Assembly (NCBI GenBank): GCA_903961015.1
Contig: CAJCCX010000221.1
Span: 1 to 48,126, forward strand
Direction of reading: 5' to 3'
Origin: an uncultured bacterium
GTDB taxonomy: Bacteria; Planctomycetota; Phycisphaerae; Phycisphaerales; SM1A02
DNA: 48,126 nucleotides
In this document: in pieces, positions 4,105 through 34,792 of the stretch
Layout of the letters: every line of letters begins with the position of its first letter
How positions within the stretch are numbered: position 1 is the stretch's first letter
Translations under genes and position numbers: made by a program
The notes under the pieces: model-generated
Database searches by the model: none
What the model saw: only the letters and a program-made list of their open reading frames with translations
What the model was told of the DNA's origin: nothing

Positions 4105-6189
4105 ATGCGCATCCGCAAATTGCTCGTTCAATTTTTATCACTCGCCCTTACGACGAGTGCCATCACATCGAATACGCCTTGTACAGCGGATGAAATCGCT
4201 CCGCCTGATTTCGCATGGTGGCGAGAAGCGCGTTTTGGAATGTTTGTGCATTGGGGTTTGTATAGCGAAGCAGGAAGTGTTTGGAAGGAGCGATTCCTGC
4301 CTGGGTGGAGCGAGTGGATGCTCAATCGAAAGAAGATTCCTCCCGAGGAGTATTACGCAGAGTTGATGCCACGATTTGATCCTGCAGATTTCGACGCGAA
4401 TGCGTGGGTGCTCGCCGCAAAAAATGCTGGGATGAAATACATCGTGATCACGACAAAGCATCACGAAGGATTTGCGAATTGGCCAAGCGCTGTCAGCGAT
4501 CGAGATATTGCTGCGACAAAATTTGGAAAACCCATTTCAGAAGGTGGGCGCGGTCGCGATCCTCTGCGAGAACTTGCTGACGCATGTGAACGCCACGGAA
4601 TGAAGCTGGGATTTTATTACTCGTTATTAGATTGGGCGCATCCCGACTATCTCCCACGCCGCGAGTGGGATGTGCGACCAATCGATGGCGCGGAGTACTC
4701 ACGTTACGCACAATTTATGCGTGCGCAAGTGAAAGAACTTCTTGATGGACGATATGGAAAGATTGCCGTGCTTTGGGGCGATGGAGATTGGGAGCACGGA
4801 GCACGCGAACATACGAGCGATGAGATTGTTGCGATGGCGCGTGCGTTACAGACAGGAATTCTTGTGAATAATCGTTGGGCTCTGCCAGGTGATTATGCGA
4901 CGCCAGAAAATTCGATCCCAGATGCAATGCTTGATCGTCCGTGGGAGACCTGCATGACACTCAATGGGTCTTGGGGATATGCGCGTGACGATCATGATTT
5001 CAAAACCGCGCCAGTCGTCTTGCAAAATCTCGCAGATATTGTTTCCAAAGGCGGGAATTATCTTCTGAACATTGGACCAGATGGACGTGGGCGAATCGAC
5101 ACCGAGTCACTTGCTGTGCTCGTAGGTATCGGTCAGTGGATGCAAGCGCATTCGACATCTATATATAGGAATGGACATACGCCACTTCCCATTCCAGAGT
5201 GGGGACGATGGACGATGGGGACAAATCAAGACGGCAGCACAACAATCAACGCGCATATTTTTTCGTCTCCAAAATCAGGATTGATTCGCCTTGACGGGGT
5301 CATCGATAATCCGGCAGCGGTGCGTGTGATTGGTGGAGAGTTTGCCGCGCCGACATTTCGTCGAGAGGGTCCAGACTTGGTTGCGAATCTTGATCCCGCA
5401 GTGCAAGAAGCCATTTCGAAAACATCTGCGCATTCTGTCGTTGCGATTGACTTTGCGACACCTCCCAGAATCTTGACCGCGCCTGTAATCGTGGGAGATG
5501 ATCGGATGTTCGTTGGCACAACGACCGTGCGCTTTGTGCCACCGCCAACTGGCGCAACGATTCATGTCACGACTGATGGATCGCAACCAAATGCGAACAC
5601 GCTTGCGCTCACTTCGAATTCTCAGGGCGAATTTGTAATCGTGCTCGACCGAACTTCGACTTTGCGAGCGCGAACAAGTTGGCAGGGAAACATGAGCAAT
5701 GCCGAGACAACACTATCTTTCGTGCGCAGCGAGTTATTGCCAGCGAAAAAGTGTGGGGACACTATCGGTCTTGATGCACGAGTGATCGCCGGTACATTTG
5801 AAATTGTTCCAGCGAATGATGTTTTTGAAAACGCAGCGCAGAAGAGCGTGATTCAATCGGTTGCGATTCCAGTCGGGGTACCTGCGGACCGATACGCGAT
5901 ACAAATTCGCGGCATGATCGATGTGCCAGCAAGCGGTGTCTATCGATTCGAAATCGCAAGCGATGACGGAAGCGAGTTATGGATCGACGGCGTGCGCATC
6001 ATTGATAACGGTGGATTGCATGGTGCGGTACCAAAGGTCGGTGATGTCGCACTTGCGATTGGATGTCACGATCTTGATGTTCGAATGTTCGAGTCTGTTG
6101 GAAGTGAAGCGCTTGCTCTTCGTTGGCGACTGCCGATGACGACACAATTCGCTGAGATCCCTCTGGAAGCTTTTCGCAGCAAGCAATGA
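4105..6189 (+). CDS. GH29 alpha-L-fucosidase with PA14 domain
   Basis: A 694-residue exported enzyme expected to remove alpha-linked L-fucose from glycans. Residues 1-28 are a signal peptide. The catalytic barrel spans about 35-355: FGMFVHWGLYS, TTKHHEGF (118-123 region) and VLWGDGDW, whose Asp226 fits the GH29 nucleophile position; ETCMTLNGSWGY near 281 holds a candidate acid/base Glu. A beta-domain follows, then a chitobiase C-like fold (HVTTDGSQPN, around residue 490), and a C-terminal PA14 module (about 590-690, FEIASDDGSELWIDG), which usually binds carbohydrate. The usual HHDGF reads HHEGF here, a small departure. It converges with a second GH29 gene, leaving 12 bp between stops. Confidence 0.93.
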   Translation: MRIRKLLVQFLSLALTTSAITSNTPCTADEIAPPDFAWWREARFGMFVHWGLYSEAGSVWKERFLPGWSEWMLNRKKIPPEEYYAELMPRFDPADFDANAWVLAAKNAGMKYIVITTKHHEGFANWPSAVSDRDIAATKFGKPISEGGRGRDPLRELADACERHGMKLGFYYSLLDWAHPDYLPRREWDVRPIDGAEYSRYAQFMRAQVKELLDGRYGKIAVLWGDGDWEHGAREHTSDEIVAMARALQTGILVNNRWALPGDYATPENSIPDAMLDRPWETCMTLNGSWGYARDDHDFKTAPVVLQNLADIVSKGGNYLLNIGPDGRGRIDTESLAVLVGIGQWMQAHSTSIYRNGHTPLPIPEWGRWTMGTNQDGSTTINAHIFSSPKSGLIRLDGVIDNPAAVRVIGGEFAAPTFRREGPDLVANLDPAVQEAISKTSAHSVVAIDFATPPRILTAPVIVGDDRMFVGTTTVRFVPPPTGATIHVTTDGSQPNANTLALTSNSQGEFVIVLDRTSTLRARTSWQGNMSNAETTLSFVRSELLPAKKCGDTIGLDARVIAGTFEIVPANDVFENAAQKSVIQSVAIPVGVPADRYAIQIRGMIDVPASGVYRFEIASDDGSELWIDGVRIIDNGGLHGAVPKVGDVALAIGCHDLDVRMFESVGSEALALRWRLPMTTQFAEIPLEAFRSKQ

Positions 6190-6201: not shown

Positions 6202-8046
6202 TCACTTCGCAACCGGCACAAGCGTGATTGATCGCAAGTTCATTACTGCGGAACCTGCCTTCGACAACGGCTTCACCACAATTTCGAAATCGCCGGCGGG
6301 GCACACGATTGTTCCCATATCAACCCCTTTGAAATCGCACCAGTTTGCGCTGGCTTGAATGGTTGATTCAACGCTTTCGGAAAGCGTTGCAACGCTTTCG
6401 GTTTCCGCCCCCGAAACCAAAACGCGAAATCGACTGCCTCCTTCGTTTGGAGCCGCTGCGACGTCTGCAGTCACGTTATATTTTCCCCCCGATTGAAGTC
6501 GAACTGCCCATCGTGCGGTTCCGTCGACATCGGTCCAGTATCCAATGTTGTCACACTTTTCTTCATAAACCAAATGACCGCGCAACTCTGCTTCTTTTGC
6601 GGTCAAATGAATTGTCCCAGTTGTGTCGGGAAGAACTGCGAAGGCGACAACTTTCGGTTCTCCAGCGATATCAACTGCGATCACGCTACTCACATCATCT
6701 GGTGCAACAACTGGAATTGAGATCGCCCAACCATCTCCTTGTCGGAATGGGTGTGTAGCGAATCCTGTTGCACCCAAAAGACGCGCGGAAAGAACTTCGC
6801 TGGTCAAACCAGGAATGAACAGCGCATTCGTACTGCCATCTACAGATTTCGGCCATTCAAAGATGTGAAAATAAAGTCTCGTTTGACCATTCGGCAACGA
6901 CTTCTGCGTGCAGCGTCCCCAAGGCAAGCGAACAAATGGGCTGGCGTGGGTTCCATAAATTGCATCGCCGTTCGTTTCCATCCATTGACCGATGCGCATG
7001 AGTCGATCAATTGATTCTTGTGGAATCTGTCCATTGGCTTGCGGGCCAACGTTGAGCAAGAAGTTTCCACCTTTGCTTGCGATGTCACAAAGCATGCGAA
7101 TCATTTCTTGGGCACTTTTCCAATTGTGATCATCGCTTTTGAAACCCCACGTGTCGTTCATGGTCATGCATGTTTCCCAATCACGACCTGGAAATCCTGT
7201 TGAAGGAACTTCTTGCTCAGGAGTTCCATAATCGCCCGCCCAATCGCCTTCGCCGTTCATGCCAGCCATTCCTGATCGCCCTTTATCAACACGATTGTTG
7301 ATGATGATGTCTGGATCGAGCGAATGAACGTACTTTGCAAGATCGAGACCACGCTCATGCGTCCACGACTCTTCCCATTCGCCGTCGAACCAAAGAATTC
7401 CAATCTTGCCATACTTGCCAGAGACCAATTCTTTCAATTGTTCTTTCATATTTCCGACGTAGCGATCGAAGTCCGCATCTTCATTCTTGCGAGGATCCCA
7501 TGAACGGTGCGGAACATAATCGTCGTGGGTCCAATCCATAATCGAGTGATAGAAACACAGTTGAACGCCGCCGCGCTCGCATGCACGCGCAAGTTCGAGC
7601 AAGATGTCTCGTTTGAATGGAGTTGCCATCACATCAAAATTTGAAACATTCGAATTCCAAAGTGCAAATCCATCGTGGTGCTTGCTGGTGATGACGATGT
7701 ACTTCTGCCCGGCAAGCTTTGCGATGCGAACCCACTCATCTGCATTGAAATCAATCGGATTGAACTGCGTCTGCAACTTCATATATTCCGACGGTTGAAT
7801 TTTTCCAGAATTCAAAATCCACTCACCCACACTTGGGATCGGCTTGCCTTCCCACTGACCAGCTGGAATTGCGTAAAGCCCCCAGTGAATGAACATGCCA
7901 AATCGTGCATCGCGGAACCATCCCATGCGTCGATCGAGATCGGCTTTCGCTGCAGTTGGTGCGGGTGAAGATGGGGCCTGCGCCAGAGATGTGGCAGGAA
8001 AAATCAAGGACAGAACAGCAACACAGCAGAGGATTATTGTTCGCAT
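6202..8046 (-). CDS. GH29 alpha-L-fucosidase (second copy)
   Basis: A 614-residue exported GH29 enzyme. I start at ATG 8046, which lies 4 bp after the stop of the thioredoxin gene and gives a clean signal peptide (MRTIILCCVAVLSLIF, cleavage near SLAQA). A longer frame to 8139 would overlap the thioredoxin gene. The barrel shows FGMFIHWGLYA, the canonical SKHHDGFALW, and ILWFDGEW with Asp221 as nucleophile; WETCMTMNDTWGF carries a candidate acid/base Glu. The end (about 510-614) is a beta-sandwich that may bind carbohydrate. It is closer to typical GH29 sequences than its neighbour at 4105 and lacks PA14, so the two probably act on different fucosides. Confidence 0.93.
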   Translation of the reverse strand: MRTIILCCVAVLSLIFPATSLAQAPSSPAPTAAKADLDRRMGWFRDARFGMFIHWGLYAIPAGQWEGKPIPSVGEWILNSGKIQPSEYMKLQTQFNPIDFNADEWVRIAKLAGQKYIVITSKHHDGFALWNSNVSNFDVMATPFKRDILLELARACERGGVQLCFYHSIMDWTHDDYVPHRSWDPRKNEDADFDRYVGNMKEQLKELVSGKYGKIGILWFDGEWEESWTHERGLDLAKYVHSLDPDIIINNRVDKGRSGMAGMNGEGDWAGDYGTPEQEVPSTGFPGRDWETCMTMNDTWGFKSDDHNWKSAQEMIRMLCDIASKGGNFLLNVGPQANGQIPQESIDRLMRIGQWMETNGDAIYGTHASPFVRLPWGRCTQKSLPNGQTRLYFHIFEWPKSVDGSTNALFIPGLTSEVLSARLLGATGFATHPFRQGDGWAISIPVVAPDDVSSVIAVDIAGEPKVVAFAVLPDTTGTIHLTAKEAELRGHLVYEEKCDNIGYWTDVDGTARWAVRLQSGGKYNVTADVAAAPNEGGSRFRVLVSGAETESVATLSESVESTIQASANWCDFKGVDMGTIVCPAGDFEIVVKPLSKAGSAVMNLRSITLVPVAK

Positions 8047-8050
8047 CAAG

Positions 8051-8629
8051 TCAGCGTACTGCAGCGTCAACCGCATGCATTGCTTCCGCCAATTGGTCAA
8101 AGCTGTGCGATCCGACCATCGTCTGTGACAAGGATCCATCGCGGCGAAGAATAAAAATCGTCGGAATCGAACGAACGGACGAAAATGGTTTGCCTACAGG
8201 CGGCGCTGGTGCGACCATCGGATAAGAAATTGATTTGTCGGCAAGAAATTTCGTTACCGTTGCTTTTGGCTCATTCGATACACCAATGACGACTAAATCA
8301 TTCGGGTATGCCTTTGCAAGTTGCTCTAGAGCTGGAAGAGTCGTTCGACACGGACCGCACCATGTCGCCCAGAAATCGATAAAGACAATCTTGCCTTTCA
8401 ATGTCGAGGGATTCAATTCGCGACCATCAATCGAAGTGAATGAATAGTTCAGTGCAGCAGACGAAACTGTTGATCCGCTTGACTCCATCGGCGCGCGTGG
8501 CACAATCGGCGCGACATTCTCGGTTGATGTCGTGGCATTGAATACAGCGAGAACAAGCACTCCTGCGACGGCAACACTTGCAATCAGAGATGTTGCGATC
8601 TTAAAAGACTTCATTCCAATGCTTTTCAT
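8051..8629 (-). CDS. TlpA-family thiol:disulfide oxidoreductase (thioredoxin-like)
   Basis: A 192-residue membrane-anchored thioredoxin. Residues 7-30 form an uncleaved or signal-like hydrophobic segment, followed by an Ala/Ser/Pro linker and an AhpC/TSA-TlpA fold from about residue 60. The active site is DFWATWCGPC, and the cis-Pro loop reads SIPTIFIL. Such proteins work in the periplasm, reducing disulfides, often in cytochrome c maturation or protein repair. The fucosidase gene follows 4 bp downstream, so the two are probably co-transcribed. ATG 8614 (Met6) is an alternative start. Only 20 bp separate it from the divergent MFS gene, so the promoters must overlap coding sequence or transcripts are almost leaderless. 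Confidence 0.9.
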   Translation of the reverse strand: MKSIGMKSFKIATSLIASVAVAGVLVLAVFNATTSTENVAPIVPRAPMESSGSTVSSAALNYSFTSIDGRELNPSTLKGKIVFIDFWATWCGPCRTTLPALEQLAKAYPNDLVVIGVSNEPKATVTKFLADKSISYPMVAPAPPVGKPFSSVRSIPTIFILRRDGSLSQTMVGSHSFDQLAEAMHAVDAAVR

Positions 8630-11235: not shown

Positions 11236-11604
11236 ATGGGGAATCCTCTTCAACATCTTCATGATCTGCAAAAACGGCGTGGCGCAAGAAGTGCAAACAC
11301 GATCCCTGTCGATTCGATCCGTAGTGACATCACTCGACTGAGAACGACTGTCGAAAAACACGCGCAAAGATTTGGAGATGCTGCTGAATTGTGGGAGCGA
11401 TTCATTCCCGCGAATGTTCGAGATGACACGCGCCTCTCAGGAATCTCTGGCGGCGTGTTGACCGTCGTGACGGGATCTGCGGCGACAAGCTATACGCTTG
11501 ATCGAATATTGCGCAGCGGGGTTGATGCTGAAATTCGAAATGCAAGCGCAGGCAAGATCACTCGGGTGAGAATGCGCGTCGGGCAAGTCAACCCGCCGCA
11601 ATAG
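11236..11604 (+). CDS. DUF721 / DciA-like protein
   Basis: A 122-residue protein with the DUF721 pattern: an N-terminal basic helix region, then LWERFIPANVRDDTRL, then beta-strands SGGVLTVVTGSAATSYTL and the final strand ITRVRMRVG. Members of this family include DciA, which binds the replicative helicase DnaB in bacteria lacking DnaC; assignment of that role here is inference from the fold. The start ATG 11236 leaves 61 bp to the divergent ABC gene; a longer open frame upstream lies over the ABC gene and is not used. Its last 17 bp overlap the 3' end of the convergent thioesterase gene. Confidence 0.7.
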   Translation: MGNPLQHLHDLQKRRGARSANTIPVDSIRSDITRLRTTVEKHAQRFGDAAELWERFIPANVRDDTRLSGISGGVLTVVTGSAATSYTLDRILRSGVDAEIRNASAGKITRVRMRVGQVNPPQ

Positions 11605-11989
11605 GATCGCCGCTCCAATTTGCTGGCAAAGGTTGCACGCGACCATCACGATCAATACATGCGAGTGTCGTTTCGCCGATCACAAGTTCTTCATCGCCTC
11701 TGCAAAGTCGATAGGAATGTTCGATCTTCACATGGCCGACATCGCGCAGCGTGGTTTCGAGCACGAGCAATTCGTCATACTTCGCAGGCTTTCGATATCG
11801 CACATCTAGGCGCGTGACTGCCAACAATATCCCGCGCGCTTCAAGATCGGCGTATGTCGAACCACCCGCACGCAACAATTCCGTTCTGCCCATCTCGAAC
11901 CAAATTGGATAGACCGTGTGATGCACGACGCTCATCGGATCACACTCGCAGTAACGCGGCCTAATTTCCAATTTGTGGATATTGGTCAT
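11588..11989 (-). CDS. Acyl-CoA thioesterase, YbgC/4HBT hotdog family
   Basis: A 133-residue hotdog-fold protein. RYCECDPMSVVHHTVYPIWFE matches the family pattern in which Asp17 is catalytic, followed by the long central helix ending TELLRAGG and strands LDVRYRKPAKYDELLVLETT. Such enzymes hydrolyse short acyl-CoA or 4-hydroxybenzoyl-CoA-like thioesters; YbgC members associate with the Tol-Pal envelope system, but no tol genes are here. An AAGGAAGG run lies directly before ATG 11989, so a ribosome site is present though close. It is convergent with, and overlaps by 17 bp, the DUF721 gene and is divergent from rhodopsin. Confidence 0.88.
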   Translation of the reverse strand: MTNIHKLEIRPRYCECDPMSVVHHTVYPIWFEMGRTELLRAGGSTYADLEARGILLAVTRLDVRYRKPAKYDELLVLETTLRDVGHVKIEHSYRLCRGDEELVIGETTLACIDRDGRVQPLPANWSGDPIAAG

Positions 11990-12150
11990 CCTTCCTTTAT
12001 ATGTGATTCACGATTTTGTGCAGTTTGAGTTTTCGCTGGCGGCAATAACTAGATTCATCGAAAAATCAATTGAGACTCGCAGAACCGAATACGTTTCTCA
12101 AATACTGCAAACGCAAAATATAAAGCAATAATAGATACAAAATTTAAAGT

Positions 12151-12168
12151 TTTTAGGTTCTTCTAAAA
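12151..12168. repeat. Inverted repeat TTTTAG-n6-CTAAAA upstream of rhodopsin
   Basis: A perfect 6-bp inverted repeat with a 6-nt spacer, in the AT-rich part of the leader about 125 bp before the rhodopsin start. It could be a protein-binding site, but short AT-rich repeats arise easily by chance. Confidence 0.3.
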
Positions 12169-12248
12169 TTCTTCTTATTTTCTTTTCGAAGCCTTGCCAG
12201 AACAGAAGCGTGCATATCCTTGGGGCATTACAAATCTGGAAATAGGGA

Positions 12249-12265
12249 TTGACCTTGTTGGTCAA
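12249..12265 (+). promoter_or_regulatory. Hairpin TTGACC-n5-GGTCAA in the rhodopsin leader
   Basis: A perfect 6-bp stem with loop TTGTT, followed by AAAA, ending 14 nt before the SD at 12280. In RNA it would be a short hairpin close to the ribosome site; in DNA it could be an operator. The arrangement is visible; a regulatory role is inferred. Confidence 0.4.
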
Positions 12266-12279
12266 AAACTAGAACCACC

Positions 12280-12284
12280 GGAGG
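12280..12284 (+). promoter_or_regulatory. Strong SD (GGAGG) that fixes the rhodopsin TTG start
   Basis: GGAGG lies 7 nt before the TTG at 12292, ideal spacing. The next in-frame ATG at 12313 has no such site, so TTG is the better start. Most genes in this window lack a site this strong, suggesting rhodopsin is well translated. Confidence 0.8.
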
Positions 12285-12291
12285 ATTCACC

Positions 12292-13089
12292 TTGTTGACT
12301 CTCGCAGCTGAAATGACCACCACCATGAAGGCCCTGAATGCAGGCCTTTCAATGGAGGGCGTAACGATGTATCTGTTTTGGCTTAGTACCGTCGCTATGG
12401 GCGCAGGAATGATTTACTTTTTTCTTCAACGCAAGACCGTTCCGGTGCAATACCAGACCGCGATTACTGTGGCCGGTATTATTTGCGGCGTTGCTGCTTT
12501 CCATTACTGGAGAATGAGCGGTATTTATTTGGAAGGCGTTGCGAGCTTGTTCAATGAAGATGGAACACGAATCACAGGCGCGACCATAAAGCAATTCCCA
12601 ACTGCTTACCGATATATTGACTGGTTAATCACGGTTCCATTACTTGTGATGGAGTTCCCACTTCTGCTTAATTTGGGAAAAGCCGGTCGCGAACTATTCA
12701 AGTCACTGCTTTTCTGGTCGCTTGTTATGTTGGTAACCGCTTGGGTCGCAGAAGAAAGCGTTACTGGAAGTCAACAATGGTGGACATGGTATGTGGTTTC
12801 ATGCGGCGCTTGGCTGTACATCGTCTACACGCTGTTCACCAAGGTCTCAGAGTCCATGAAGTCCGCCCCTGAAAGTATTCAAGAAAGTTTGAAGACGATG
12901 CGTATGTTCGTGCTCGTTGGTTGGGTGATTTACCCAATTGGTTTCTTGATGGCTCTCAATGGTGGCAATGGCGAAAGTTGGCGCGAAATTTTGTACAACG
13001 TGGCTGACGTTATCAACAAGGTTTTCTTCGGCTTGGTTTGCTACCAAGGCGTAAAGGTTCTAGGACAACAACAGCACCAAAAAGCCTGA
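12292..13089 (+). CDS. Proton-pumping rhodopsin (proteorhodopsin-like, green type)
   Basis: A 265-residue, seven-helix retinal protein of the plasma membrane. Helix C reads RYIDWLITVPLLVMEF: Asp110, Thr114 and Glu121 give the DTE motif of outward proton pumps (Asp as Schiff-base acceptor, Glu as donor). Leu118 sits at the spectral tuning position (residue 105 of proteorhodopsin), where Leu means green and Gln blue absorption. His71 (AFHYWRM) matches the conserved His75 partner of the acceptor Asp. Lys243 (DVINKVFFG) carries retinal. By hand alignment Tyr167 occupies the helix E position that is Gly in xanthorhodopsin, so a carotenoid antenna is unlikely; that is inference. The start is TTG. 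The retinal-forming blh gene follows 19 bp downstream. Confidence 0.96.
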   Translation: MLTLAAEMTTTMKALNAGLSMEGVTMYLFWLSTVAMGAGMIYFFLQRKTVPVQYQTAITVAGIICGVAAFHYWRMSGIYLEGVASLFNEDGTRITGATIKQFPTAYRYIDWLITVPLLVMEFPLLLNLGKAGRELFKSLLFWSLVMLVTAWVAEESVTGSQQWWTWYVVSCGAWLYIVYTLFTKVSESMKSAPESIQESLKTMRMFVLVGWVIYPIGFLMALNGGNGESWREILYNVADVINKVFFGLVCYQGVKVLGQQQHQKA

Positions 13090-13108
13090 GTCCCTGGAAA
13101 TATTTAGT

Positions 13109-14176
13109 TTGAAACTCGCCCCGCCTAACGCCGCCGAGTTCGATGGATCCAAAAGATCTGCCGAACAGGTGGCGAAGGCGGGGTGTTTTATTTTTGCAAG
13201 CGCGCGCATATGGCCTTGGTGCATTTTGCTTTTTGGTGTGGTGAGCGCATTGATCAATCCCGCATTTACCAAAGCAATGGCGCCGTGGCCGTTTGTGATC
13301 GCATTATTTGTATTCGGTATGCCTCATGGATGCGCAGACTGGAGTGTGGCGGCACGACTTTCTGGGCGAGAAACATTTGGGCAAAAAATCAGTGGATTTA
13401 CAAGTTATTTGTGCCTCATGCTTGCAAGCTTGGCACTTCTCGCGCTGCTGCCGGGCGTCGCTGCCTTGTTGTTTCTATGTTTAACCATTTTCCATTTTGG
13501 CATGGCCGATGCAACTGCGGTGCATGCAGACAAGGATGGATTTGTTGCAAACTGGGGATTGGCGCTTGGTCGCGGAATACTTTTATTGAGCACGGCCTTT
13601 GCGTCGCATCCTGTTGCAGCATGGGCACCATTTGAGCAAATTGGAATTGCATTCAGCGCATGGCAACAGAGTTCCGCAAGCGCGTGGATCCCTACATCAA
13701 ATCAAATCCACCCATTTGCAGTCATTGGTGTTGTCGCAGGAGTACTACTTGCTCTTGCAAGCGCGATAGAACGCTTGCGCCGCGGACACGCCAAGGCAGC
13801 GATTGCTGATCTCATTGAAAATGGATTCGTTGCCGCTATGGCGGCGCTTGCGGATCCATTATTCTCGGTCGGTATTTTCTTCCTTGGGGTGCATGCATTC
13901 AGACACACTCGTCGCTTGGCGTGCACGAGCTCCATACTTTCATTTCATTGGGCACCAAAAGATTTAATGACCCGATTGATCCGCGTGCATGTCATAAGCC
14001 TCTCGTTGTTGTGGCCCACTTTGCCCTGCCTGATTCCACTGTGTTTACTGCTTGGTGGATTCAGCGCAAACTCGATTGCTGTTGCGAGCATTAGCTTCTA
14101 TATGATCACAACGCTGCCGCACCATTTGCTTGGCTTGCGTTTACCTGCTGCCGATTTATTGCCAGCCAGGGAATGA
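13109..14176 (+). CDS. blh: Brp/Blh-family beta-carotene 15,15'-dioxygenase
   Basis: A 355-residue multi-pass membrane enzyme that cleaves beta-carotene into two retinals, the chromophore for the rhodopsin encoded 19 bp upstream. Family His motifs are visible: GMPHGCADW (His73), FHFGMAD (His129), GVHAFRH (His262 and His266) and TLPHHLLGL (His338/339); these coordinate the iron. About eight hydrophobic segments are seen. The start is uncertain: TTG 13109 comes right after an in-frame TAG with only a weak GGA upstream, and GTG 13169 would remove 20 polar residues. Beta-carotene synthesis genes are not in the window. It ends 4 bp before the stop of the convergent mnmE. Confidence 0.9.
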   Translation: MKLAPPNAAEFDGSKRSAEQVAKAGCFIFASARIWPWCILLFGVVSALINPAFTKAMAPWPFVIALFVFGMPHGCADWSVAARLSGRETFGQKISGFTSYLCLMLASLALLALLPGVAALLFLCLTIFHFGMADATAVHADKDGFVANWGLALGRGILLLSTAFASHPVAAWAPFEQIGIAFSAWQQSSASAWIPTSNQIHPFAVIGVVAGVLLALASAIERLRRGHAKAAIADLIENGFVAAMAALADPLFSVGIFFLGVHAFRHTRRLACTSSILSFHWAPKDLMTRLIRVHVISLSLLWPTLPCLIPLCLLLGGFSANSIAVASISFYMITTLPHHLLGLRLPAADLLPARE

Positions 14177-14180
14177 CAAA

Positions 14181-15596
14181 TCACTTTCCGATGCAGAATC
14201 GTGCGAACAGTGCAGCAAGCACATCGTCTGGAGTTCGATGACCCGCAACGATTCCAAGCGCATCGAGCGCGTCGCGCAATTCCATCGCAATAATCTCTGC
14301 AGGCTCTGCAGCACGGCGCCCCGCATCGACGCACGCTTGTGCCGCATCGCGCGCTTGTCCCATCAAAGTCTGCGCATCAGCAAGTGCTGACCGATGCCGT
14401 GTAAGCAGAACTGGGGCGAGTCTCGCTCCACCAACCCAGCCTCCATCATCGACCGCTGCCGTGAGCGCTTCGCGAAGTTCTTCGATGCCATCGCCATTCA
14501 ACGCGCTTGTCATGCAACCACCCTGCACTTTGGCTTGCGCGAGACTTCGATCATCTGCGCAGTCTGACTTCGTCCACACAGTCATCATTCGTGGGCCACT
14601 CATAGCCTGCGCATCGACTGAAATCGGGACGCAATTCAATTGCAAAGTTGCTGCATCAAACGCATGCTGCGCAAGTTGTTGCATTTGCTCTGCAAGCGCA
14701 TGCTGTGGATCTTCAATTCCAGGCAAGTCAACCAGCAATGCTTCTCGGCCGCGGTTTAGTTTGAGAGTTTCGACAATCGCATCGCGCGTCGAGCCTGCTT
14801 GAGGTGATGTGACAACGCGTTCATGCCCAAGCAGTGCATTAAAAAGGCTCGATTTTCCAGCATTTGTCGCGCCACGCAGCGCAATGACAGGAAGCGCGCG
14901 CAGCGATTCTTCGGGAGTTGTTTGATTGACCGCTGCGGAAAGATCGTCCTGAACCGCGGCGATTCCAGCCGCAAGGTCGACTGCAGTAATTGCAACAACA
15001 TCTTCTTGGTCACTGAAGTCGATGCCAGCTTCGACAAGCGCAAGCAATCCAGTAATTTCCTCTGCGGCTTTCAACGCAATCTGCCGAATGCGCCCAGTGC
15101 GCAATTGTCGCGCTGCATCCAATTGCGAATCTGATTCGGCAGAAATTGAAAGTGCGATCGACTCCGCTTCCTCCATGGAGAGCGTGCCACTGAGAAATGC
15201 GCGAGCACTGAATTCGCCTGGCGATGCATGGCGCGCGCGCATTGCGCCCATTTCGGAATCGCACAGCGCATCAACGACTGCCGTCAAAAGTGAAGCATGT
15301 CCTGCGATCAAAAATTCGACAGTCTCTTGCCCCGTGAAACTTTGCGGAGCAACCATCACAAGTGCAAGTGCAGGGACATCAACCCTTTGTCCACATATCG
15401 ACACAGCGATGCGAACGGATTGCACTCCTCGGCGAGCGATCAATTTTTCTTCAACAAGTCGCTCATTTACAATCGCAAACGTCGCATCGCCGCTGATGCG
15501 CACGATGCCGCGCGCAGCAGAACCTGGCGGTGATGAAATCGCCGCAATCGCATCGGATGCTGACGCGGTCTCGACCCAGTTCGAGGGCTCGGGCAT
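14181..15596 (-). CDS. mnmE: tRNA uridine-5-carboxymethylaminomethyl(34) synthesis GTPase MnmE
   Basis: A 471-residue GTPase that with MnmG modifies U34 in the anticodon of several tRNAs. The N-terminal folate-binding domain includes PPGSAARGIVRISG and SFTGQETVEF; a helical domain follows, with an inserted G domain: GATNAGKSS (242-250), DLPG, and TKSD in place of NKxD. The final FARFCIGK carries the conserved catalytic Cys. Start ATG 15596 is one base past the yidC stop (TGATATG), showing translational coupling; the longer frame to 15677 would overlap yidC. The G1 motif has Ala-Thr-Asn-Ala instead of the more usual Arg-Pro-Asn-Ala/Val. Confidence 0.95.
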   Translation of the reverse strand: MPEPSNWVETASASDAIAAISSPPGSAARGIVRISGDATFAIVNERLVEEKLIARRGVQSVRIAVSICGQRVDVPALALVMVAPQSFTGQETVEFLIAGHASLLTAVVDALCDSEMGAMRARHASPGEFSARAFLSGTLSMEEAESIALSISAESDSQLDAARQLRTGRIRQIALKAAEEITGLLALVEAGIDFSDQEDVVAITAVDLAAGIAAVQDDLSAAVNQTTPEESLRALPVIALRGATNAGKSSLFNALLGHERVVTSPQAGSTRDAIVETLKLNRGREALLVDLPGIEDPQHALAEQMQQLAQHAFDAATLQLNCVPISVDAQAMSGPRMMTVWTKSDCADDRSLAQAKVQGGCMTSALNGDGIEELREALTAAVDDGGWVGGARLAPVLLTRHRSALADAQTLMGQARDAAQACVDAGRRAAEPAEIIAMELRDALDALGIVAGHRTPDDVLAALFARFCIGK

Positions 15597-15597
15597 A

Positions 15598-17859
15598 TCA
15601 GCCTCTGGCTTTGAACTTCTTGTTTGTTTCACGCTTTGATTGCGCGCGTTCCAAAGCTTTCTCGTACAACTTTCCAATTGCGTCGCGCGTCTTGGACTTC
15701 TTCACAACGACTGGCTGATCCTTTGTCATTTCAATGTATCGGCGCACGCGCTTACTCTCCCAAATTCCTACAAGCGTCGAAGTCATGATGTACAAAGTCA
15801 ATCCAGATGGAGCGGCATAAAGCATGACAGGGAACATAACAACTGTCATGATCCGCATCATCTTCTGTTGTTGTTCCTGTTCAGGAGTTTGCTGAGTCGA
15901 TGGCGGCGGCGCCATGTATTTCTGCTGAATATAGAAAACGCCACCCATCAGTAGTGGAACAAGATTGATACTTGCGAGAGAGAAAAAGTAAAGATTGATC
16001 GGAGTTGGCAGTGTGATGAATCGGTCCTGCGCGCTGAGATCGCCAAGAAAATTCCAGCCACCCAAAAGTTGGAAGACGCCGAAAAATGCTGGCTGTTGGC
16101 GAAGTTCGAATGCCAGATACAGAACGGCATACAGCGCCATCCAAATTGGCATCTGCAGGAATGTTGGCAGGAATCCACCAAGACACCCGACTGGATTCAC
16201 ACCCTTCTCTTTATATAGCCGCATCTGCTCTTGCTGCATCCGCTTTGGATCGTCACCATATCTCGCCTTGAGTGCATCGAGTTCTGGCTTCATCTCCGCC
16301 ATTCCTCGAGTCAAACGCTGCATTTGCACTTGCGACTTCTTGCTGATCGGATGCAAAATGAGACGCACGACAAGTACAAGCGCGATGATTGCCAGCGCCC
16401 AATCAAACACAACATAGTTATGTAGGAAATCCAAGAAGATGACCATCAAATTTGCCAGCCACGCAAATGTGCACCATGAACAACATCCACCCATCGAATA
16501 GACAATGAGCCCTGACATTTCAAGCGCGCTATAAGGAGGAACGGTGGAAAGGATCACATGATCCAGAGGTCCCGCAAACACCCCCATCGAAAAATCTGCC
16601 GTCTGTCCAGCCGCGACTATGCGCGCCGGCGAATGCAGCTCGATAAATAGCGTTGGCGCACCTGTTGTATCTGTGGGACTTGGATCGCCAAGCGATGCAC
16701 GAATGGACTCGATCGATGTTGCCAGCGACTTGCTTGGAATACCTGTAGCAGTTGGCACCATTGGTGCATGCACCGCAAGAGAAAAATATCGATTGGTCGT
16801 TCCAAACCAACTCAGGTGCTGATCTTGTTCCTTCTGCTCTGGACTCGGCCACACATCAAATTTTGCAGCGGTGACATTTTTCACAACCGCAGCGCGCTCG
16901 AGCATCGAATCATGCGTGATCACAGAAGTCTGCGCTGGATCACGTCGTTCGCTCATCAAATATCCAAACTGAAGACGACGAATATCCATCATCTCATTCG
17001 CGACTCGCGTCAAATCTCCAGGGCCGTATTGCACAATGCTGATCGTGTGCGTGGCGGAAGAAAGATTCTCGACGGTCTGCGAAAGCGTGATGTCGTATCC
17101 ATCGCCCTGTTTCGTTTGCAAAGCAAAAACACGCCGAACTTTCAACACTGGCGTTCCCGCATCATCGACAAGAAGTGTTTCGAAACTTCCGGGAGATTGC
17201 TGAGACCAGACAGCACCAAAGAGCGAAGTTGATTGACCATCGACCTGAATCGAATGCGCAGCCAACATTGGCACAGTGAAACTTGCGAGCGTTCCAACTG
17301 GCGCAAGAAAATATCTGTTGCTTACATCCGGCAAGGGTGGAATTGTGTTTGCGCCAGATGCGATTGCAGTTGCGTTGCGAATCGCGGCAGTGCGATCAGA
17401 TGCGTTCACCCAGAATTCGCTAAAAACTATTTTGCTAATTCCTGCGCCGGCTGTCGAGAAATCAATCGTGAAGCGATCGTTGGCTGGATCGAGCGAGCCA
17501 ACACTCGCCACAGTCGAAATTGCAGCGCCAGATGGACGAGCCTTCAACTTTGTTGTTGTCACTGCTGGAGAAACTGTGGCAGTTGGTGCATTCGGTGGGA
17601 TCACTGCAGCAGATGCAGAAATAGAGGTTGCAGTACCGGACGCAGTCGAAGCTGCTGCGCTCGTTGCAACCTCTGAGCTTGCAGGAGATGTGGGGCTGGC
17701 TGCAACTGGGGAATCACTCGCATTTTTCGATTTTGCGGCTCCCTTCCCTGTCATGACAATCGTCACGATGCTTGCAGCGAATGAGATGACCAACAGCGTC
17801 AGAAGTAATTTTCGAGTTCCCTTATTCATTTTTATTCGTTTCTCTTTCTTGATACTCAT
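15598..17859 (-). CDS. yidC: Membrane protein insertase YidC (Oxa1 family), long form
   Basis: A roughly 753-residue inner-membrane insertase. After a first TM segment (KLLLTLLVISFAASIV) comes an Ala/Ser/Thr-rich linker of about 90 residues, a large periplasmic beta-sandwich domain (to about 440), then the five-helix insertase core. The conserved core Arg near residue 499 is in VLVVRLILHPIS; NPVGCLGGFLPTFLQMPIW and FPVMLYAAPSGLTLYI mark later helices; a basic tail follows. ATG 17859 overlaps the upstream TGA (ATGA); ATG 17829 (MNKGTRK) is an alternative. A cysteine cluster, GGCCSWC, just before the second TM helix is unusual. It is longer than the E. coli form mainly through the linker and tail. 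Confidence 0.94.
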   Translation of the reverse strand: MSIKKEKRIKMNKGTRKLLLTLLVISFAASIVTIVMTGKGAAKSKNASDSPVAASPTSPASSEVATSAAASTASGTATSISASAAVIPPNAPTATVSPAVTTTKLKARPSGAAISTVASVGSLDPANDRFTIDFSTAGAGISKIVFSEFWVNASDRTAAIRNATAIASGANTIPPLPDVSNRYFLAPVGTLASFTVPMLAAHSIQVDGQSTSLFGAVWSQQSPGSFETLLVDDAGTPVLKVRRVFALQTKQGDGYDITLSQTVENLSSATHTISIVQYGPGDLTRVANEMMDIRRLQFGYLMSERRDPAQTSVITHDSMLERAAVVKNVTAAKFDVWPSPEQKEQDQHLSWFGTTNRYFSLAVHAPMVPTATGIPSKSLATSIESIRASLGDPSPTDTTGAPTLFIELHSPARIVAAGQTADFSMGVFAGPLDHVILSTVPPYSALEMSGLIVYSMGGCCSWCTFAWLANLMVIFLDFLHNYVVFDWALAIIALVLVVRLILHPISKKSQVQMQRLTRGMAEMKPELDALKARYGDDPKRMQQEQMRLYKEKGVNPVGCLGGFLPTFLQMPIWMALYAVLYLAFELRQQPAFFGVFQLLGGWNFLGDLSAQDRFITLPTPINLYFFSLASINLVPLLMGGVFYIQQKYMAPPPSTQQTPEQEQQQKMMRIMTVVMFPVMLYAAPSGLTLYIMTSTLVGIWESKRVRRYIEMTKDQPVVVKKSKTRDAIGKLYEKALERAQSKRETNKKFKARG

Positions 17860-34108: not shown

Positions 34109-34792
34109 TCATTCGTTGCTCTTGGGCGTACTCCCAAGCTCAATCCCTTCAAGCGACACAATAATTCTTGTTTCATCGCCCAGCATTTTTTTCTCGACTC
34201 CATACGACACACCAAAGTCACTACGCTTGATTTCGAAGGAGGCTTCAAATCCAGCGCGAGTTTTGCCGCCGAGTTTGGAAATGGATGAACACTCGATAGG
34301 CACAGTGATTCGTTTCTTTATGCCATGAATAGTCAGATCTCCAACAACTTCGAATCGACCACTTTCGATATGTTTTGCGCTGATACTGACAAAGGTCATT
34401 TGCGGAAATTCAACTGAGTTAAAAAAGTCTGGACTTTTTAAATGTCGGTCGAGCTGTTCATTGTTGCTATCAACGCTTTCAGTGTGAATCGTGATGTTCA
34501 GCGACAAAGATTTCGTTGGGGTGTACTGAACAGTTCCGCTGACATCATTGAAGATTCCCCAGAATCTTCCGGCGCCCATATGTTGCACGCGGAACAAAGC
34601 CATTGAGTGCACGTCGTCTACTTCGAAGGTCGTCGGGGTGTCCGTGCTTTTTGTTTCTGTCGCTGACTGCACGGATGGCGTCTGCTGAGAAAAGCCAGTA
34701 GCAATGACGACGAATGTAGTGATGGCAGCTACAGATAATGCGCGGCGAAACGAAGAGATTTCAAATACCTGGGCTAGAAAATTATGAGTCAC
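34109..34792 (-). CDS. YceI-family periplasmic protein
   Basis: A 227-residue exported protein. The start is GTG 34792 with GAGAGG 7 nt upstream (34800..34805, complement). Residues 15-40 are a hydrophobic signal, followed by a Thr/Ser-rich linker and the lipocalin-like YceI domain (DDVHSMALFRVQHMGAGRFWGIF, HLKSPDFFNSVEFPQMTF, GDLTIHGIKK, SDFGVSYG). The fold binds long polyisoprenoids or other lipids and is linked to stress or quinone handling. Specific ligand unknown. It shares no operon partner on this strand other than, possibly, the small gene candidate upstream. Confidence 0.92.
   Translation of the reverse strand: MTHNFLAQVFEISSFRRALSVAAITTFVVIATGFSQQTPSVQSATETKSTDTPTTFEVDDVHSMALFRVQHMGAGRFWGIFNDVSGTVQYTPTKSLSLNITIHTESVDSNNEQLDRHLKSPDFFNSVEFPQMTFVSISAKHIESGRFEVVGDLTIHGIKKRITVPIECSSISKLGGKTRAGFEASFEIKRSDFGVSYGVEKKMLGDETRIIVSLEGIELGSTPKSNE

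Follow-up and report, generated by a model that had tools for sequence, protein, structure and literature searches.

The 48,126-nucleotide contig analysed here (called the window; contig CAJCCX010000221.1 of GenBank assembly GCA_903961015.1) comes from an uncultured member of the Phycisphaerales and carries a rhodopsin gene and a Brp/Blh dioxygenase gene (blh) as an insertion between mnmE and a thioesterase gene. Gene content gives good support to the view that the host, like its relatives with this rhodopsin type in the order, has no known endogenous route to beta-carotene. As an explanation, we slightly favour a mobile photosystem fed by an imported beta-ring carotenoid, which would make the host a provitamin-A-dependent phototroph. 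The insertion and its borders are composed as follows:

11588..11989, minus strand: YbgC/FadM-type thioesterase gene (4HBT), flanking the insertion on its left (TIGR00051, 77.8 bits, cut-off 68.7)
11990..12291, no strand: AT-rich non-coding part of the insertion, 37% GC, probable promoter site, with GGAGG at 12280-12284
12292..13089, plus strand: type-1 rhodopsin of 265 aa, DTE proton-pump type, PVC/Exiguobacterium-like clade (by Pfam, structure match, residues and tree)
13109..14176, plus strand: Brp/Blh dioxygenase gene, blh (by Pfam BCD, TIGR03753 and conserved His)
14181..15677, minus strand: mnmE, right border of the insertion site (Pfam MnmE_helical and TrmE_N), present in all 19 genomes of the genus

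The rhodopsin gene starts with TTG at 12292, 7 nt downstream of the GGAGG motif, and is separated from blh by 19 bp (13090-13108). Its product matches Pfam Bac_rhodopsin with 149.4 bits (cut-off 24.6). The closest solved structure is 4hyj (E 2e-51), listed in the structure table as 'Rhodopsin', which we take to be the Exiguobacterium protein (ESR). The residues D110, T114, L118, E121 and K243 are present, as are H71 and D239, and the signature of outward pumps is complete, with K243, D110 as acceptor, T114, E121 as carboxylic donor and D239 in helix G. Judged by these residues, the protein is very likely an outward light-driven proton pump. Open reading frames, Pfam matches and alignment thus agree with the sequence-only reading, which had described a DTE rhodopsin and a dioxygenase homologue with this spacing and residue numbering in a probable planctomycete host.

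The Blh protein matches Pfam BCD with 92.8 bits (cut-off 28) and NCBIfam TIGR03753 with 92.2 bits, about 3 bits below the cut-off of 95.25. Histidines 73, 129, 262 and 266 are invariant in all 37 aligned Blh proteins, including that of the genome G007, and His 338 is found in 36. By family profile and conserved histidines, the protein qualifies as a Brp/Blh dioxygenase, and it is likely to act on a beta-ring carotenoid. No solved Blh structure was found, and two plasmid records contain Blh. Both genes are under purifying selection. The dN/dS ratio ranged from 0 to 0.13 for the rhodopsin (13 pairs) and from 0.15 to 0.37 for blh (12 pairs), the highest value stemming from the comparison of the window with G090, where there are few changes. 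These values were derived from 16 genome pairs (15 for blh), of which three were saturated, and the pairs include close relatives and are not independent. Since a gene without a substrate should decay, the purifying selection on blh indicates that something is probably cleaved by its product.

A blh-like reading frame lies directly downstream of the rhodopsin in 29 of the 30 loci first fetched, and the sole exception (L005) stops at a contig edge. For this reason, the pairing is not attributable to chance. Within 7 kb around the cassette, or less at shorter loci, no third partner gene emerged, as no family recurred beyond 6 of 20 taxon groups once rhodopsin, blh and overlapping reading frames on the opposite strand were set aside. 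Of the fetched loci, G090 and G360 alone gave a match to the 302 bp upstream of the rhodopsin (11990..12291). On the plus strand of this segment, no consensus sigma-70 site was found. The promoter scan returned 1 site versus 2.7 in shuffled sequences and the terminator scan 3 versus 3.1. A 15-nt imperfect direct repeat (12246-12260 and 12283-12297), whose second copy covers the rhodopsin start, could be an operator or a chance occurrence.

The same site is empty in six genomes of the genus, where thioesterase gene and mnmE are 22-32 nt apart. In three of these no rhodopsin was found (G255, G126, G045) and in three it lies elsewhere (G209, G211, G225). The window has about 2.19 kb between the two genes, and G090 is arranged alike, with flanks syntenic to those of the window; in G360, rhodopsin, blh and mnmE share one short contig that begins inside the insertion. 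The view of the cassette as a later insertion, already taken by the sequence-only reading, is therefore supported by the empty sites. Around the cassettes of G209, G225 and G211, the contig of the last being only 4.5 kb long, no match was found to any of 20 window genes outside the pair. On the mnmE tree of the 19 genus members, rhodopsin presence requires three changes. The rhodopsin tree, computed with a quick method, places the window sequence in a supported set of eight, whose other members are three genus-mates, three sequences from a second genus (g6) and a bin that carries no label. The genus label requires four changes, and starred branches force two of them. A supported set of 27 includes three rows with Verrucomicrobiota titles; one of its other rows is titled delta proteobacterium, and all the rest are planctomycete according to code or title. 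The other 12 Verrucomicrobiota rows lie outside this set. The odd taxon titles could stem from binning errors in metagenome-assembled genomes (MAGs). Empty sites, non-matching flanks and the two trees together demonstrate that the pair moves between loci, and it probably also moves between genera and phyla.

Nucleotide composition, which had been proposed as a sign of transfer, was discarded. The GC content of the rhodopsin gene is 47.4%, compared to 50.4 +/- 2.0% for 30 window genes. However, its third-position GC of 53.4% is higher than in 29 of these 30 genes, and blh is within their range; it is the empty site, not composition, that provides evidence of transfer. Around the insertion, no bracketing repeat pair of at least 14 nt was found that could mark the ends of a mobile element, and the window contains no tRNA or Rfam match. 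The window genome and G090 share a 300-bp stretch (13950-14250) and the mnmE protein with 100% identity, as opposed to 86% over the 302 bp preceding the rhodopsin, perhaps owing to a recent recombination tract at 13950-14250 and mnmE.

The window genome is a draft of 2.88 Mb in 308 contigs, with 93.5% completeness and 3.3% contamination. Among 400 genomes drawn from the order, 52 have a rhodopsin match, covering 20 of 163 genera, and within the genus of the window genome six of 19 do. Most close relatives that the rhodopsin has among named records come from MAGs with Planctomycetota, Phycisphaerae or Phycisphaerales in the title, followed by Verrucomicrobiota, and their titles point to lakes and the sea as habitats. 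Rhodopsins of the window clade occur in 41 genomes of the order (the window genome, 38 from fetched regions, G263 and G313), 30 of which are at least 90% complete. This count leaves aside G060, G273, G309 and G311, which have partial rhodopsins, and G035, which has other types. Very divergent rhodopsins, 20-25% identical to that of the window, are present at L130 (G182) and at L128 and L129 (G035).

Retinal normally derives from beta-carotene (available text of PMC3587595), and beta-carotene is reached through CrtB, CrtI and, from lycopene, CrtY, as the accessible part of PMC8163842 names the steps. These genes were sought in 49 of the 52 carriers, G215, G245 and G038 having been dropped for rhodopsin matches of 20-25 bits. 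For lycopene cyclase, PF05834 and TIGR03462 were used in the window genome and the carriers, with no separate CruA-type model. The window genome has no match to TIGR03462 and none to PF05834 at E 0.001, and TIGR03462 is absent from all 49 carriers searched. PF05834 is matched in 27 of the 49 at E 0.001, in 15 over the family cut-off and in three over its full length (G007, G053, G074). The rhodopsins of these three form their own group, that of G007 being xanthorhodopsin-like, and they lie beside crtI-crtB-crtY with blh after crtY (by profile match for G007). As these positive controls show, the search method works in this order. The row of G007 spans L123:6161-11719, and similar rows are found at L124 and L125. 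Among 108 rhodopsin loci, in which many genomes are represented twice, crtB and crtY matches were confined to these three genomes.

In contrast to these controls, neither a CrtB-like gene nor a cyclase was recognised in any of the 41 genomes with a window-type rhodopsin. The number of SQS_PSY matches is two in 32 of them, three in two (G096 and G263, pieces by their coordinates), one in four (G135, G358, G012 and a fragment in G299) and zero in three (G081, 97% complete; G303, 96%; G340). Despite this absence, G081 and G303 possess rhodopsin and blh. Two SQS_PSY genes are also present in all 13 rhodopsin-free genus mates. The window genome has only two such genes, in tandem: one scores above the cut-off of HpnC; for the other, HpnD is the best model, at 230.8 bits against a cut-off of 278.6; and the adjoining gene passes the HpnE cut-off. 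In a FastTree phylogeny that returned long-branch warnings (73 sequences from 46 loci, not all of them carriers), the carriers' genes are HpnC-like, HpnD-like, where they group with those of rhodopsin-free genus mates, or squalene-synthase-like (G135, G358, G012), and the three CrtB proteins of G007, G053 and G074 form a set apart from them. Profile classification covered the window pair, G135, G012, G416 and five verrucomicrobial genes, several of them below curated cut-offs, and the carriers outside the tree and profile sets were read by gene number and adjacency. The single-contig genome G012 (99% complete) encodes rhodopsin, a blh-like gene and a squalene-synthase-like gene beside a CrtI-type gene, and it has no full cyclase match. 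The claim that the pair supplies the cell's own retinal is therefore not upheld for the window genome.

The weak PF05834 matches were considered as hidden cyclases and rejected. The 19 proteins scanned (17 from carriers, two verrucomicrobial) best fit other flavoprotein models, namely the geranylgeranyl-reductase family, halogenase, sulfide-quinone reductase, choline/mycofactocin dehydrogenase, the CrtI family and HpnE, mostly below the cut-offs of these models; for L113 (G340), L120 (G041) and L243 no model was matched at E 1e-20. Partial matches over the PF05834 cut-off occur in 12 of the 49 carriers, of which 11 were assigned to other families and G340 has no assignment. The scan left aside the remaining weak matches, including one of G307. 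In 17 further genomes of unstated completeness, to which named loci led (15 with Verrucomicrobiota or one of its families in the title, one with Planctomycetes, one untitled), the models run were PF05834, with three partial and no full matches, and PF00494, which matched in 15. This hints that the pathway gap may extend to Verrucomicrobiota. The known steps to beta-carotene are thus missing from the results for 41 genomes of one order, and perhaps for related Verrucomicrobiota.

The host nevertheless probably has genes for a carotenoid of its own. In G209, two CrtI-family genes lie together with genes for an aldehyde dehydrogenase, an acyltransferase and a glycosyltransferase, a set expected for an acyclic C30 acid ester. 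C30 skeletons do not contain the carbons needed for a beta-ring. The window genome has two CrtI-family matches, at the ends of a 3.6-kb contig. Together with the HpnC/D/E-type genes, this suggests that the host probably makes an acyclic C30 carotenoid by the squalene route. The sequence-only reading would have been overturned by the absence of a carotenoid pathway, an absence seen here for beta-carotene and not for carotenoids in general. In the accessible part of PMC12078418, the squalene route to C30 carotenoids is reported for Planctopirus limnophila, and C40 and C45 carotenoids for two strains of marine Pirellulaceae; planctomycetes thus differ among themselves in this respect. CrtI-family genes over the cut-off are found in 47 of the 49 carriers and, within the genus, in 6/6 rhodopsin carriers versus 5/13 non-carriers (one-sided Fisher p 0.017). 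On the mnmE tree, this trait changes only twice, and independent pairs lend no support to its association with the rhodopsin. One possible reading of the association is that the carotenoid made by the cell itself plays a part in the function of the pump.

Two positions of the retinal pocket set the window clade apart, the alignment columns being presumed to correspond to bacteriorhodopsin numbering. At the Gly122 position, 58 of the 59 clade rows have Ala (Ala150 in the window) and one has Ser, and at the Trp189 position all 59 have Phe (Phe218). Gly and Tyr occupy these positions in ESR, green proteorhodopsin, xanthorhodopsin and the three G007-type rows. The 59 rows include close relatives and are not independent, and L128, L129, L130 and L236 were removed from them as other types or long branches. 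Proteorhodopsin position 105 is Leu in 40 rows, among them the window (Leu118), and Met in 19. Gly122 contacts the ionone ring and is highly conserved, and its change blue-shifts various rhodopsins, as stated in the available text of PMC6197263. Leu118, on which the 'green-type' label of the sequence-only reading relied, is present, and the label is uncertain in view of the Ala in place of Gly122. The absorption of the clade may be shifted away from green even with Leu or Met at position 105. The proton donor is Glu in 58 of the 59 rows. The single Lys, found in L160 (G065), is shared with the Exiguobacterium rhodopsin. At the Trp138 position, mapped by hand since xanthorhodopsin is gapped there, the window has Tyr167 and 57 of the 59 rows have Tyr; we assume that this position equals Gly156 of the xanthorhodopsin antenna fenestration.

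Taken together, the favoured explanation is a mobile two-gene system in which the rhodopsin would pump protons outward, using retinal that Blh would cleave from a beta-ring carotenoid. The host would take up beta-carotene or another beta-ring carotenoid from algae, cyanobacteria or other bacteria. We infer this uptake because no known route to beta-carotene was detected in the host. A point against it is that no carotenoid-uptake gene or transporter was identified. A YceI-like protein is encoded at 34109-34792 of the window; the YceI fold binds polyisoprenoids, and the protein is a possible carotenoid carrier. Two adjacent, converging alpha-L-fucosidase genes (4105-6189 and 6202-8139) would fit fucose polymers, perhaps algal, as food, and prove nothing in this regard. 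If uptake is true, the use of light energy by these bacteria of lakes and the sea hinges on pigments made by algae or neighbouring cells, which would be the bacterial equivalent of provitamin A use and analogous to animals that need dietary vitamin A. If it is wrong, there is another, unknown way to the rhodopsin chromophore.

The main alternative is such a way, an unrecognised internal route, in which an HpnC/HpnD-like enzyme would yield phytoene, a CrtI-type enzyme from the separate CrtI cluster would desaturate it and a novel protein would close the rings. The HpnD-like protein of the window genome scores below its curated cut-off and unusual HpnC/D products are conceivable, nearly all carriers have CrtI-family genes, which are associated with the rhodopsin in the genus, and retinal was nevertheless produced by an actinobacterium that lacks both blh and diox1 (PMC7734400, as far as its accessible text goes). 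We consider this route rather unlikely, since the CrtI cluster of G209 is composed as for an acyclic C30 ester, CrtI-family genes occur without rhodopsin in five of 13 genus mates, all 13 of these mates have two SQS_PSY genes as well, and two nearly complete genomes, G081 and G303, have rhodopsin and blh with no SQS_PSY match at all. It is improbable that the cells scavenge retinal itself and that Blh is vestigial or serves some other function. The position of blh next to the rhodopsin in 29/30 loci, its four histidines in 37/37 proteins and the purifying selection speak against this, despite a score just below the NCBIfam cut-off and despite rhodopsin bearers without blh being known (PMC7734400, PMC12422013 and PMC9418006, from their available text).

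A further variant would make use of the C30 carotenoid directly: Blh would split it mid-chain to a ring-less C15 polyene aldehyde that serves as the chromophore instead of retinal. Such an aldehyde has the same double-bond chain as retinal and no ring. The C30-type cluster, the missing cyclase and the two clade-wide pocket changes (Gly122 to Ala, and Phe at Trp189 where relatives have Tyr) would be in line with it, and it would represent a natural rhodopsin with a squalene-route chromophore for which cyclase, phytoene synthase and uptake are needless. To our knowledge, characterised Blh enzymes require a beta-ring. In addition, the changes from Gly to Ala and from Tyr to Phe are small, and the first has an ordinary spectral reading in the accessible part of PMC6197263, so this variant appears very improbable. 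Hardly any weight is given to a technical cause, meaning crt genes lost from the MAGs or a cassette that is contamination. The window genome is a fragmented draft with some contamination and most other genomes are drafts too, but the cassette is embedded in a contig of 48 kb, where its flanks show synteny with G090, and the pattern recurs in 41 genomes, including the 30 of at least 90% completeness and one on a single contig.

Neither the phylum nor the gene pair is new as such, while the gap in pigment supply was not found in print. In freshwater Planctomycetes, five green rhodopsins, one of them in Phycisphaerae, were reported in 2019 (PMC6461901), and planctomycete rhodopsins are described from Lake Baikal (PMC8071047) and cyanobacterial mats (PMC13043013), each according to the available text. 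In the literature searched, with subscription papers outside its scope, no report of a bacterial rhodopsin with blh and without carotene synthesis was found. Near to the topic is a paper on Saccharibacteria with host-sourced retinal (PMC9296517). In MAST protists, according to the accessible part of PMC8163842, blh was detected in a few species and a lycopene cyclase, in part, in a single species. Most rhodopsin-bearing Verrucomicrobiota are said in the part of PMC10284914 available to keep crtE/I/B/Y and blh beside the rhodopsin, which disfavours extending carotenoid import to this whole phylum. Clades P4 or P5 of that study may include the rhodopsin type of the window.

The window rhodopsin resembles a PVC clade near the Exiguobacterium rhodopsin (PMC5673642, PMC6040077) in its best match to 4hyj and in its relatives among Phycisphaerae and Verrucomicrobiota MAGs, an assignment by resemblance and not by sequence comparison; the accessible text of these two accounts does not treat carotenoid supply or pocket changes. 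With ESR itself it shares the overall sequence, the His-Asp pair and Tyr at the Trp138 position. Unlike ESR, it has Glu121 instead of Lys as the donor, and Ala150 and Phe218 in place of Gly and Tyr. As in the canonical proteorhodopsin and xanthorhodopsin operons with crt genes, rhodopsin and blh stand in one row, whereas crtB and crtY are neither beside the pair nor recognised elsewhere in the genome. An incomplete retinal pathway is shared with Rhodoluna, Luna-1 and Comchoano, rhodopsin bearers that may depend on a chromophore from outside (PMC7734400, PMC12422013, PMC9418006). However, according to the available text of these studies, those bacteria are wholly or mostly without blh, and the window type keeps blh and misses the carotenoid steps. 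In the literature cited, as far as accessible, retinal dependence in bacteria has hitherto meant a rhodopsin unaccompanied by blh; the type described here retains this final enzyme.
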